A stretch of 64,000 nt of DNA from NCBI RefSeq assembly GCF_000817735.3, contig NZ_JTJC03000002.1:318242-382241 (forward strand), given 5' to 3'. Both the position numbers and the translations under genes were made by a program. The notes below the pieces were generated by a model that was not told the origin of the DNA, ran no database searches, and saw only the letters and a list, made by a program, of their open reading frames with translations. Of this stretch, positions 7,565 to 56,666 are shown piece after piece. Numbering within the stretch: position 1 is the first letter of the stretch; each line of letters starts with the position of its first letter. This DNA is from Scytonema millei VB511283 (lineage in GTDB: Bacteria; Cyanobacteriota; Cyanobacteriia; Cyanobacteriales; Chroococcidiopsidaceae).

Positions 7565-10120
7565 GCTAACAGTTCTCCGTCTAGCGGCAGAATAAGCCGA
7601 ATCGTTAGCTTGAATTTGGGAAACAATCGGGAAATATTGATTGTCGAACAAGTTTTCTACTCCTATTTGTAAAGTTCCAGCATCTCCTAGTTGAATACTG
7701 CTGATGTAGTCTACAGTTGAGTAACTCTCTACTTCCCTTCTGCCAAAAGCAACGCTGTCACCAAAAACATCGCGATCGCCAGAAAATAGTGCTTGGAAAC
7801 GATTGCGCCAACCTGGAGAAGTTTCATTCTCGACATAAGCTATAACCTTTAAAGGTGGAATCCGAAAACTATCCAAAGCTGTATACTCTCCATCATCAGC
7901 CAGATCGATTTCACCCCCTTGTAAAGTAACGGAACCACCAAGTTGCCAGCGATCGCTCGGTTGCACGTATACAGCAGCTTCTACACCATAAATCCGTTCT
8001 GGGGCGCGGAGTACGGTTCCTGGTGCAGTAAAGGTCGTACCTAACTCTGACTCGTTATAGAAAGCAGATAAAGACCCTTGGATCGTCTCCCACTGTCCGC
8101 GCAAACCAATTTCATAACTATCAACCCGCTGTGGTTCTGGATTGAGTGACTCGACATCGAATCCTAGCTGAGCATTTCTTAAAACTAAGCCGATATCTGC
8201 TAGCGAAAAGCCTTGGGCGAAATTCGCAAATACGTTGATTTCGTCAGTCAGAAAAAACACCGTACCGATATTGAACAGCGTTGCGTCAAAATTGAGATCG
8301 CCGCCAGGAATCACCGTATCGGGGTTGGCTAAAGTCGTGAAGTCATCGACGCTGACATCGGCATTTTCGTAGCGCACGCCGCCATTGATGATAAAGCGCT
8401 CGCTCACATCCCAGGTTAACTGCGCAAATAAACCCAAACTATTGAGTTCTAGCGGTGGTGTCCAAGTTCGTTCGCCTGTAGCGAGAAAATCTAAACCTCC
8501 ACTGGCTTCAAAAGCAGCGCGATCGAAGGTTGTCACGGGTTGGACGGTATCTTCGTTAAAGTAGTCTACACCCCATAACAGCCTTGCTGCCCCTTTGTTA
8601 AATAGAGGCGTTTCAATTTGCAAGCGTCCGCCAAACCTTTCCGATTCCACCCGCGATTGATAAATTTGGTTGCCCAAGTTGCTGAAATTTCTGCCGTCAA
8701 ATGGAAAGAACTCAGTCAGGTAGTCTCGATAGTACAACTGAGCCTGCACGTTGCTACCCAACAAGTTTTCGTGGCTGTACTATAAATTTAGCAGCGTGTT
8801 TCGAGTACCTGGAAGTTCGTCTAAGTTCAATCCTTCCAAAGTGCGGGCTTTTTGTCTGCCTGGTAGCAAATTGACGCTAGGCTCGGTAGTAAAGTCTGTA
8901 TCTTGGCTGTCGTCGAAGTGGTTGAACGTCAACTGAAGGCGCTGTTGCTCGTCTAAATTCACGCCTAACTTACCAAAAAAGTTGAGTGTCTCAGCATCAG
9001 AAAAACCACCTTGGGCATTCGGATCGGGAGGAATGCGATCGCCCTCAGCATCAAAAAAACCGCCTGTAGTCGTCAGCGAACCACTCACGGCAAAATCGAA
9101 ATTATCCTCAGTTCCAGAAATTGCATGTTGCAGGTTATAACCTAAACTATCGCCTGATAAATCTCCCAAAGCTCCACTTATGCCAATTTGACTCTGAGAA
9201 GCTAACCTCTCCTCGCTCGCCGTGCGCGTGATGATATTGATGACACCACCCGTTCCGCCATCTCCATAAATCGCACTGGGTCCCCTTACTACTTCAATTC
9301 GTTCGATTGCCGAAGGATCGATCGTGCGCAAATCGCGCTGAGCATTTCGCGAAGTCGATTGCGGCACACCATCAATCAAAACTTGCACGTTGCGCCCCCG
9401 TAGAGTTTGCCCAAAGTTACTGCTGCTTTGAGTTGGAACTGCTAAGCCAGGAACTAACTTACCGAGAATTTCCCCTACATTTTGGGACAGTCTTGTTTGT
9501 TGTTCAATTTGTTCGCGATTAATTATCGTCACCGATCGCGGTACGTCCTGCGGTTCTTCTGCCGTCCGCGTTGCCGTCACGGTAATTTCCTGTGCTGGCT
9601 CGCCTTCTGTAGTCGCTTCTGACTCTGCTGGGGTTTGCGCTGTTGGTGCGGCGGTTACAGGCGCAACGGTGACAACCAAGCCGTTTTGACTTGGTACAAC
9701 TTCTGCTGTGGGTGTTGCTGTCTCTCCCACGAGTTGAACTCTGACACGATTAGCATCAATTTGAGTCACTGTAACGAGACTGATTCCCTGGGCTGGGTTT
9801 TCTGCCCGATAATCTCCCTCTGGTAACGCCAGCCTTGCTTGAGGGATGTCTGCTATCCAATTATTATCGTCAATCGTGGGCGTAGCTGCTGGCAATTGCT
9901 GTCCGCCTGCCGTTTCCAGGATGAGTTCCAGCCCTTGAGGAGTCGAATTCAGTCTTACACCCGTTACCTCGATTACCTTCTCTGCATCGCTACGCTGCTC
10001 TTGGGGCGCGTTTTGAGTATAAGTGGATACTGATGTAAGTTGCGCTTGAGCGATCGCGGGGACGAACGTGGCGATCGCGCTGACTAAGCTTAGTACAGAC
10101 AGTAATTGCAAATTTGACAC
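7565..10120 (-). pseudogene. AMIN-domain TonB-dependent siderophore receptor, broken by TAG and IS
   Basis: An outer-membrane ferric-siderophore-type receptor gene. From 10120: signal peptide (LSLVSAIATFVPAIAQA), an AMIN domain (residues about 48-145), a low-complexity linker, a plug domain (VTATRTAEEPQDVPRSV..., IERIEVVRGPSAIYGDGGTGGVINIIT) and barrel strands. The frame stops at a TAG (8780-8782) after residue 446 and continues in the same frame at once (YSHENLLGSNVQAQ...) to near the barrel end, VENLFDNQYFPIVS. The last strand is lost where the IS200/IS605 element enters: after RRRTVS the frame runs into IS sequence and stops at 7484. So there are two independent lesions. An iron uptake role for the ancestor is inferred from AMIN-receptor relatives. 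Confidence 0.9.
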
Positions 10121-10363
10121 AATAACTCCTCACTCACAAATCATCATGCGACTTGCTAATTTACTCCTATGGAGAGATGCAAGATTCGATTTCGCGTTAT
10201 TTTGAAGTAAATACTCGCTTTTTAGTCAGTAAATTTACTGAAACCAATTTTCAATAATACTACTCAAGTAATAAAAATCAGCAAGAAAATTTCTCAATAA
10301 AATTCCCCCCTTTTTAAGGGGGGTTAGGAGGGATCGAGATCTCAAACTTCCAGCGCGTAACTC
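10121..10363. promoter_or_regulatory. upstream region of the TonB receptor
   Basis: A 243-base gap before the receptor start, AT-rich (TTTTCAATAATACTACTC and similar). A Fur-type operator would be expected here, but I see no convincing 19-base Fur box. It also contains the candidate terminator of the upstream gene. Confidence 0.3.
10305..10323. terminator. CCCCCC-TTTTTAA-GGGGGG hairpin
   Basis: Stem CCCCCCTT/AAGGGGGG with a three-base loop, 41 bases past the stop of the HCF173-like gene. The same unit follows infC (25864-25882). It is likely a dispersed repeat acting as a transcription terminator. Confidence 0.6.
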
Positions 10364-11848
10364 TCAATCGCGCTTTAAACGAGCCAACAAATTCTGCCAA
10401 TTAGCAGCAAAAGCACCGTAGTTCGGATCGGCTTTGACTTCAAAAGTCAAGTTAGCATCCTGGGGTTGCTCCACGACTCGAACGCAGAGTTCCGCAATCG
10501 AATCGCGGCTGACTTTACCTTTAATATTATCTCCCTGGTCGAAAACCAAAGGCTGTATCCCAGGTTCTTCTGTCAGCGCACACGGTCTGATAATTGTATA
10601 AGGAACGCCACTTTCTCTCACAGCTTCTTCACCACGCCATTTCCAAGTTAGAATTCCTCCCAATTGGTTATTTAAACGCACGGCTGGCGGTTCTTCCTCT
10701 AAATTAATTCCTGGGCGATTGGGACGAGTGACACCAGCAGAACTGACTAAAATAAACTGAGGTTTTGCACTACCGTACGCGCCAATTGACTCGACTTGCA
10801 AAGCAAATCCACCAGGAGAAAACTGCGGATTGAGTTCGCCGTTGTATTCAAATTTGCTCAACATTAACTGCAACGAGCGAATTTTGCTAGTATCGATCGC
10901 TGGAGCATCTGATATTGTTTTTGCCCGAAATACGGCTGTTAATTGGTTAAATGGAATTCGTACCGTTATCCACTCGTTAGCGACGGTATCAAAAGAATAG
11001 GAATAAGCCATTCCATCCCAACTCGATTCCGTGCGGAGGAAAAACTTGTAGCGCTTACCGTCTCCCCTAACTCGCAGTGTCACGCCTTCGTAGCCGGATA
11101 AATCTAATGGCGAAGTGAAATTTTTCGTCCTGACAGAAGCAAAGCCGCCAGAGTTGGCTGTAGAAACATTACCCGTAAATAAAGCCGTACCTTCAATAAA
11201 GCGGATCTCGCTTTGACTGACACCACCCATGACGACATCATCAACAGCACCCCAAATTTGCTGTAATTGAGGAGTTGGTTGAGTAAAATCAAAGACGATT
11301 TTTTCGCCACTGGGGTTCTGTTGCCAATATTGAGTCGCCGCTTGGACTAAATTTTTTACTCCCAAATATTCCACCCGTTCTGGAGTATCGCCGACGATTT
11401 CGGGTTGATAGAACTTCACGCCTTGATTGTATTTTTCTCTATCTGGGGTATCGCCGCCCACTGGTTGCACCCGCACCGCCGTACAGCAAATGACAACGCG
11501 GACGTTTGCCATCATTTCTGGTGTCAGGGTTTCTGGCTGGGTAATGTCGCCGACATAGATTTCTACATCACCCAAAATCGATCTTGCTTTATCTTTGTCT
11601 CGAACGAGCGATCGCACCTGATATCCTCTTTCTAGCAACCGTTGTACGACTCGCTTACCTACACCACCCGTTGCGCCAGCGACTAGGATAACTCCCACTT
11701 GCTTACCTCCAGATAAATAATTTTCGGGTTTGTCAGCCACACCTGGGAGTATCTGTTTTAACCAACTCCAGCCAGGAATCGCCTCGAAATAGGCTAAAGT
11801 GCGGATGAATCTACCTGCATCCCAGCCAGCACGATTTTTTTCTGTCAT
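10364..11848 (-). CDS. HCF173-like SDR protein with inserted CIA30 domain
   Basis: A 494-residue atypical short-chain dehydrogenase. An N-terminal Rossmann segment (VAGATGGVGKRVVQRLL, residues 56-72, then YVGDIT) is interrupted by a CIA30 domain (about 185-365: WGAVDDVVMGGVSQS..., FTGNVSTANSGGFASVRTK, VRGDGKRYKFFLRT). The SDR fold resumes at ILVSSAGVTRPNRPG. This architecture is that of plant HCF173, needed for translation of psbA mRNA, so a role in photosystem II synthesis is likely for the cyanobacterial homologue (inference). No membrane segment is obvious. It appears to be monocistronic, with the hairpin at 10305 after it. Confidence 0.85.
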   Translation of the reverse strand: MTEKNRAGWDAGRFIRTLAYFEAIPGWSWLKQILPGVADKPENYLSGGKQVGVILVAGATGGVGKRVVQRLLERGYQVRSLVRDKDKARSILGDVEIYVGDITQPETLTPEMMANVRVVICCTAVRVQPVGGDTPDREKYNQGVKFYQPEIVGDTPERVEYLGVKNLVQAATQYWQQNPSGEKIVFDFTQPTPQLQQIWGAVDDVVMGGVSQSEIRFIEGTALFTGNVSTANSGGFASVRTKNFTSPLDLSGYEGVTLRVRGDGKRYKFFLRTESSWDGMAYSYSFDTVANEWITVRIPFNQLTAVFRAKTISDAPAIDTSKIRSLQLMLSKFEYNGELNPQFSPGGFALQVESIGAYGSAKPQFILVSSAGVTRPNRPGINLEEEPPAVRLNNQLGGILTWKWRGEEAVRESGVPYTIIRPCALTEEPGIQPLVFDQGDNIKGKVSRDSIAELCVRVVEQPQDANLTFEVKADPNYGAFAANWQNLLARLKRD

Positions 11849-55904: not shown

Positions 55905-56666
55905 ATGGATCGCACTACTCAATGGAAAGTTACATGGCAAATTATAAGTTATAAAATTATGACATTTCTCTGGCAGTGGCTTGGTGTATTTGGTATGTCG
56001 TTCGGTGCGATCGTTTTTGGAATTGGCGCTCACAACGCAAAAAATCAGCGTTGGCAGATTTTGTATACGCTCAACTTCTTCGTTTGCGCGATCGCTGCTG
56101 GACTATATTTAATTATGGCTCTCGGTCAAGGAGTAGACTTTATTAACGGTCGTCCCATTTTTTGGATCAGATATGTTTCCTGGTTTATTTCCACACCTTT
56201 ATTGCTATTAATTCTCACATATCTTGGTAAAACTAGCATCACAACTACAGCTAGTTTAGTGGGAGCAAATGCTTATACTATTGCTGCTGGTTTTGTTGCT
56301 ACTATTTCACCCTATCCAGTTAATTATATTTGGTATATTGTCAGTTGTGCAGCTTACTGTGCTACTGTATATCTTCTCCTTCATCAATATCGCCCACAAG
56401 TAGAACGTACCTTCCCTAGAGTCATTCCAGCATTCCACAAATTGCTAAAAGTCCACTTGATAATATGGACATTTTACCCAATAGTCTGGATTCTTAGTCC
56501 CGCAGGTTTGAATTTCTTAAATATTAGCGTGGAAACAATGTTTGTTACTCTCCTCGATCTGGGTTCCAAGGTAGGTTTTGGTTTTCTTTCATTGCAAACC
56601 ATGACTGCCATAGAGAAAGCGAGACAGCAAGCAAAAACAGCATCTTCTTTAGTTGTATTTCGTTAA
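55905..56666 (+). CDS. microbial (type 1) rhodopsin with Ser-Ser-Ile motif
   Basis: A 253-residue seven-helix retinal protein. Helix C reads RYVSWFISTP and then LLLLIL; against bacteriorhodopsin RYADWLFTTP, the proton acceptor Asp85 is Ser92, Thr89 is Ser96, and the donor Asp96 is Ile103. Arg89, Trp93 and Pro98 are kept. In helix G, LLDLGSKVGFGF supplies Asp218 and the retinal lysine Lys222. With no carboxylate at 85 and 96 it should not pump protons; the resemblance to the TSx signature of halide pumps suggests an anion transporter or a sensor (inference). No retinal-synthesis or transducer gene is next to it. Confidence 0.93.
   Translation: MDRTTQWKVTWQIISYKIMTFLWQWLGVFGMSFGAIVFGIGAHNAKNQRWQILYTLNFFVCAIAAGLYLIMALGQGVDFINGRPIFWIRYVSWFISTPLLLLILTYLGKTSITTTASLVGANAYTIAAGFVATISPYPVNYIWYIVSCAAYCATVYLLLHQYRPQVERTFPRVIPAFHKLLKVHLIIWTFYPIVWILSPAGLNFLNISVETMFVTLLDLGSKVGFGFLSLQTMTAIEKARQQAKTASSLVVFR

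Follow-up and report, generated by a model that had tools for sequence, protein, structure and literature searches.

A rhodopsin with a natural Ser-Ser-Ile motif in Scytonema millei belongs to the cyanobacterial chloride-pump (CyHR) clade

We describe a rhodopsin gene of Scytonema millei VB511283, located in a 64,000-nucleotide stretch of genomic DNA (hereafter, the window), whose product carries Ser, Ser and Ile at the positions equivalent to residues 85, 89 and 96 of bacteriorhodopsin (BR). This SSI rhodopsin is a modest natural variant of the known cyanobacterial chloride-pump family (the CyHR clade) and not a new kind of protein; its distinctive feature is the Ser that replaces Thr at the first motif position. 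Judging by its clade, its residues, its predicted fold and the purifying selection on its gene, all of which were computed, the protein is very likely a CyHR-clade pump that uses light to move anions inward and binds them at a Ser-Ser site. The SSI rhodopsin is not mentioned in the literature that was searched, though key subscription papers fell outside that search, and as far as the excerpt of PMC12587747 goes, the SSI gene is not the subject of that paper on Chroococcidiopsis and rhodopsin.

The open reading frame at 55905..56666 (all features lie on the + strand, and residue numbers are counted from 55905) encodes 253 amino acids and matches the PF01036 Bac_rhodopsin profile with 155 bits; it is the sole PF01036 match at E <= 0.001 in the window's genome. 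The true start of the gene is probably at 55959, 18 codons after 55905, since the orthologue in another genome of the same genus (G002; locus L108, ORF 10046..10753) has no in-frame ATG, GTG or TTG upstream of the codon equivalent to M19. The N-termini of the two characterized CyHR proteins, SyHR of Synechocystis sp. PCC 7509 (PDB 7zou) and MrHR of Mastigocladopsis repens (PDB 6xl3 and 6k6i), coincide with M19 in the alignment, and the remaining two same-genus copies differ in length inside the 5' extension. The probable coding sequence, read from M19, occupies 55959..56666 and encodes 235 amino acids. The comparison with G002, SyHR and MrHR suggests that the in-frame 5' extension at 55905..55958 is probably untranslated, and model confidence is low there, with a pLDDT of 69 in the first and 77 in the second block of ten residues and a lower value only in the last block (63). 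A scan for promoters and terminators was uninformative: it returned 6 promoter-like sites against a shuffle mean of 4.0, and 1 terminator-like site against 1.0.

The motif assignment of the initial annotation holds. The helix C segment RYVSWFISTPLLLLI (56169..56213, R89 to I103) aligns to R71..D85 of SyHR and its MrHR counterpart without gaps, which places Ser92 (56178..56180) at SyHR T74 and BR D85, Ser96 (56190..56192) at SyHR S78 and BR T89, and Ile103 (56211..56213) at SyHR D85 and BR D96. In helix G the conserved Asp218 (56556..56558; SyHR D201, BR D212) and Lys222 (56568..56570; SyHR K205, BR K216, the retinal Schiff-base lysine) are both present, as had been noted. Two ways in which the triplet might have proved spurious were considered. 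A shifted alignment that hides an Asp belonging in the 85 slot is ruled out by the gap-free alignment, the helix C stretch being devoid of any Asp. A sequencing or assembly error in a protein whose homologues carry DTD or DTE is ruled out as well, because Ser is encoded in the window's genome and in both others of its genus: the G002 orthologue, 94% identical, is also SSI, the broken copy of the third genome (G001) has the codons TCT, TCC and ATT for the same Ser, Ser and Ile, and the CyHR relatives are of TSD, TSL and TSI type.

The closest solved proteins are MrHR and SyHR (312-320 bits), followed at a distance by the cyanorhodopsin CyR (6lm0, 148 bits) and bacteriorhodopsin (118 bits). The SSI rhodopsin shares 61-64% identity with the former two (61% with SyHR and 64% over the aligned model with MrHR). 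Its AlphaFold model, based on an alignment of 25 sequences, has a mean pLDDT of 89; its six best matches in the PDB are all MrHR or SyHR structures (rmsd 0.7 Å, TM normalized to the target 0.96-0.98), and CyR comes next with an rmsd of 1.4. The residue set of the clade, Arg at BR82, Ser at BR89, Asp at BR212 and Lys at BR216, is present. All of R71, S78, H167, E193, D201 and K205 of SyHR are kept, whereas T74 is replaced by Ser, D85 by Ile, T183 by Ala and Y197 by Val. Compared with MrHR, N63 and P118 are kept, while T74 is changed to Ser, D85 to Ile, E182 to Ala and Y196 to Val. Position BR85 is still occupied by a neutral hydroxyl residue, but this residue is Ser, whereas the described CyHR members examined have Thr. 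Two other classes of cyanobacterial rhodopsin were rejected. The proton-pumping cyanorhodopsins (CyR and CyR-II), with Asp at BR85, are ruled out by Ser92. The xenorhodopsin or Anabaena sensory rhodopsin type is marked by Asp at BR85 combined with Pro at BR212; it is ruled out by Ser92 together with Asp218, and the 12 rows with a DTA motif (Pro at BR212) make up a separate clade. G001 and G002 each carry, in addition, such a DTA (xenorhodopsin-like) gene (loci L031 and L023), and none was found in the window's genome.

The survey of rhodopsins comprised 107 loci from overlapping searches of 100, 388 and 388 cyanobacterial genomes (the second and third being samples of larger groups, with hits listed at E <= 1e-40) and from a genome_contigs scan for two peptide patterns, which gave 36 loci. 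Removal of 31 duplicate, broken or partial loci, and of L030, which had no match in the pooled search, left 75 distinct rows, or 76 with MrHR. Placed against other type-1 rhodopsins, as the initial annotation had proposed, the SSI protein falls within CyHR in each of two trees. The first, a quick tree of all 76 rows, unites the 58 CyHR sequences with an SH-aLRT support of 98 and sets them apart from the 12 DTA rows and from 6 whose BR85 residue is Asp. A more careful tree, built with the three motif columns omitted, separates CyHR from three DTD/DTE rows with 100/100 support, its bootstrap being not fully settled.

Within the clade, the motifs of the 58 rows are TSD (32), TSL (13), TSI (6), TSV (2), TST (2), TTV (1) and SSI (2), with L043 partial. 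The third residue thus varies between Asp, Leu, Ile, Val and Thr, and variants of TSV, TSL and TSI type in this clade have already been published (excerpts of PMC9617919 and PMC5877348), although the only members characterized as of 2022 were MrHR and SyHR, both TSD (PMC9617919, in excerpt). The TSD-type Asp at BR96, absent from the SSI rhodopsin, is therefore not a defining trait of CyHR, as 24 of the 56 other rows also lack it. The initial annotation had stressed that the protein has no proton acceptor or donor; the residues are indeed absent, but this is ordinary for a family in which BR85 is already neutral (Thr) and BR96 is variable. What sets the SSI pair apart is the first position: Thr occupies BR85 in every one of the other 56 rows, and among the cyanobacterial genomes sampled Ser there is confined to the window's genus and its three genomes. 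It is in this limited sense that the protein can be said to represent an unusual subgroup. Ser at BR89 is shared with 55 of the 56, the sole Thr being that of the TTV protein of L042 (G248), which sits on a long branch (0.83). Nearest in motif are the TSI and TSV proteins of Nodosilinea and relatives (L067, L064, L094), which belong to the same clade and share an aliphatic third residue but have Thr as the first. Five distinct broken CyHR copies were excluded from these counts (L008/L022; L009/L028/L080; L040; L078; L079), and at BR85 four of them have Thr and that of G001 has Ser. The search extended beyond cellular chromosomes: none of the 137 pattern matches obtained in viral_contigs was a relative, and nine plasmid records matched, all below 60% identity, the best place at 37.8%.

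The careful tree requires BR96 to have switched between Asp and another residue at least four times, and BR85 to have changed once. A single clade of all non-Asp rows is rejected (p-AU 0.017), and this was the only rejection among five groupings. The SSI pair could be joined with the TSI/TSV clade (p-AU 0.209), with those SyHR-like rows that belong to its own family (0.417) or with the MrHR group (0.138), or all CyHR rows other than SSI could form one clade (0.265). Since these four groupings of the five are not rejected (p-AU 0.138-0.417), Ile103 may or may not represent an independent loss of Asp.

The anion-transporting function put forward in the initial annotation is made probable by placement in the CyHR clade and by retention of residues of the anion site and the release path. 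In SyHR, chloride is bound by T74, S78 and a water molecule attached to the Schiff base and D201; its exit is thought to pass H167, and R71 and H167 are important for transport (excerpt of PMC11995866). Among these mechanism residues, together with D85, only T74 and D85 are altered in the SSI rhodopsin. The replacement of Thr by Ser at position 92 keeps the hydroxyl and removes one methyl group. Bacteriorhodopsin with Ser at position 85 has been described as a chloride-pumping mutant (PMC4585134, in excerpt), and BR(D85S) binds anions (PMC9385722, in excerpt); structures of this mutant (PDB 1jv6 and 1jv7) offer a type-1 rhodopsin with the same residue at this position, although it is engineered and archaeal, it keeps Asp96, and BR is about 31% identical to the SSI rhodopsin. 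The retained hydroxyl of Ser92 and the BR(D85S) precedent lead us to expect an inward anion pump, for which anion binding, direction and photocycle are taken by analogy from SyHR, MrHR and BR(D85S). Retinal would be attached to Lys222, and an anion, by default chloride, would be held between the protonated Schiff base, Ser92 and Ser96, position 92 being free of a carboxylate. The bound anion, Asp218 and Arg89 would together make up the complete counterion. Upon light-induced isomerization of retinal, the anion would be moved across the Schiff base and would leave to the cytoplasm through the region of His184 (56454..56456; SyHR H167), which is kept, while a replacement anion would enter from the extracellular basin. 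A proton donor at position 103 would be unnecessary in such a cycle. Some features speak against the pump reading. According to a hypothesis cited in PMC9617919 (in excerpt), Asp at BR96 blocks the backflow of chloride against its gradient, and this Asp is replaced by Ile here; furthermore, one genome of the three in this genus has only a broken copy, and the dN/dS of the gene exceeds that of five of its six syntenic neighbours, if barely so for one of them.

Two further replacements hint at an altered anion preference. Ala200 (56502..56504) lies at the extracellular gate, at the position of MrHR E182 and SyHR T183, where the other 56 rows have Thr (34), Glu (20), Ser (2) and never Ala, and Val214 (56544..56546) lies in the extracellular basin at SyHR Y197, where they have Tyr (55) or Phe (1). 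The MrHR mutant E182A has been reported to pump sulfate, and better than E182T (excerpt of PMC9617919), and the SSI rhodopsin has Ala at this position as its natural residue. It might be speculated that Ser92, Ala200 and Val214 favour larger anions, for example sulfate. However, Y197 is part of the modelled sulfate site in SyHR (PMC11995866, in excerpt), and Val at this position would speak against sulfate. Ala200 and Val214 would thus pull in opposite ways on the substrate, which, like the direction of transport, we infer. The concentration of changes on the anion path is not significant (the path holds 12 of 72 conserved sites and 3 of the 7 changes at such sites, hypergeometric P 0.085), so remodelling of the binding site is only a hint. 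We consider it rather doubtful that this is a natural anion pump whose site and basin have been jointly remodelled (T74S, Y197V, T183A/E182A, L6Q) for an anion other than chloride, such as sulfate or another oxyanion, and at the same time a case of CyHR pumping with no titratable cytoplasmic group. The interest of the protein lies in the same residues: three related genomes share a natural replacement of Thr by Ser where SyHR contacts its transported anion, and Ile replaces an Asp whose role in CyHR is unsettled (PMC9617919, in excerpt). The SSI protein bears on the effect of a one-methyl change on anion selectivity and on whether pumping can do without the cytoplasmic carboxylate, and also on natural sulfate pumping, given its Ala at the site of the reported E182A effect (same excerpt). 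Separately, Thr is the commonest residue at SyHR 183/MrHR 182 across the clade, contrary to the statement in the excerpt of PMC9617919 that Thr in place of Glu occurs only in SyHR; this bears on arguments about sulfate pumping.

The SSI pair sits on its own long stem, with 0.67 changes per column on the careful tree, and at 23 positions it has residues that none of the 56 other CyHR rows shows. Such divergence might be expected of a CyHR protein that no longer pumps efficiently and now acts in light sensing or regulation by way of an unlinked partner. Most of the transport-path residues are kept, however, and no transducer-like family was found among the eight neighbouring proteins scanned, which belong to the polyphosphate kinase 2, GNAT, TetR, ABC permease, formyltransferase, WecG and epimerase families or, in the case of one ORF of 151 amino acids, have no Pfam match. 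The signalling role offered as an alternative in the initial annotation thus finds no partner in the scanned neighbourhood, and we regard a sensor as quite unlikely.

The window and G002 copies differ by 31 synonymous and 11 non-synonymous codons out of 235 (dN 0.0215, dS 0.239), and because their dN/dS is 0.090, the rhodopsin is under purifying selection in these two genomes. The dN/dS values of six syntenic neighbours range from 0.013 to 0.174, five of them being below that of the rhodopsin, the ABC permease barely so (0.089 vs 0.090). The locus of G001 is syntenic, but its rhodopsin is broken: the probable coding sequence has undergone three changes of length and the 5' extension another two. 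This region (L109, 9770-12858) also has about 2.2 kb inserted just upstream of the gene, and the insert contains fragments of an ORF, presumably transposase-like, that is found complete elsewhere on the same stretch. In other cyanobacteria, four further CyHR copies contain stops or frameshifts, and loss of the CyHR gene may be recurrent. Taken together, the broken copies and the insertion could suggest a decaying gene whose Ser and Ile changes are due to drift. Against this stand the low dN/dS at a dS of about 0.24 between the two intact copies and the codons of the SSI triplet, Ala200 and Val214, which are present in all three same-genus copies. Since the broken G001 copy has the same codons, these residues probably predate the break, and we give decay even less credence than a sensor. 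Least probable of all is a light-gated anion channel in the manner of GtACR1, which has Ser (S97) at the carboxylate position and, by spacing, an aliphatic residue at BR96 (L108, which lines the tunnel; PMC6336409, in excerpt), because the SSI rhodopsin is placed in CyHR by sequence and predicted fold, with MrHR and SyHR as its nearest structures, and an aliphatic third residue is common among its TSL and TSI relatives.

The RPE65 oxygenase family has three matches in each of the three same-genus genomes. This family includes enzymes that do not make retinal; a supply of retinal in these genomes is possible. Within the same family of cyanobacteria as the window, locus L005 (G007), judged by eye, seems to carry SyHR itself.
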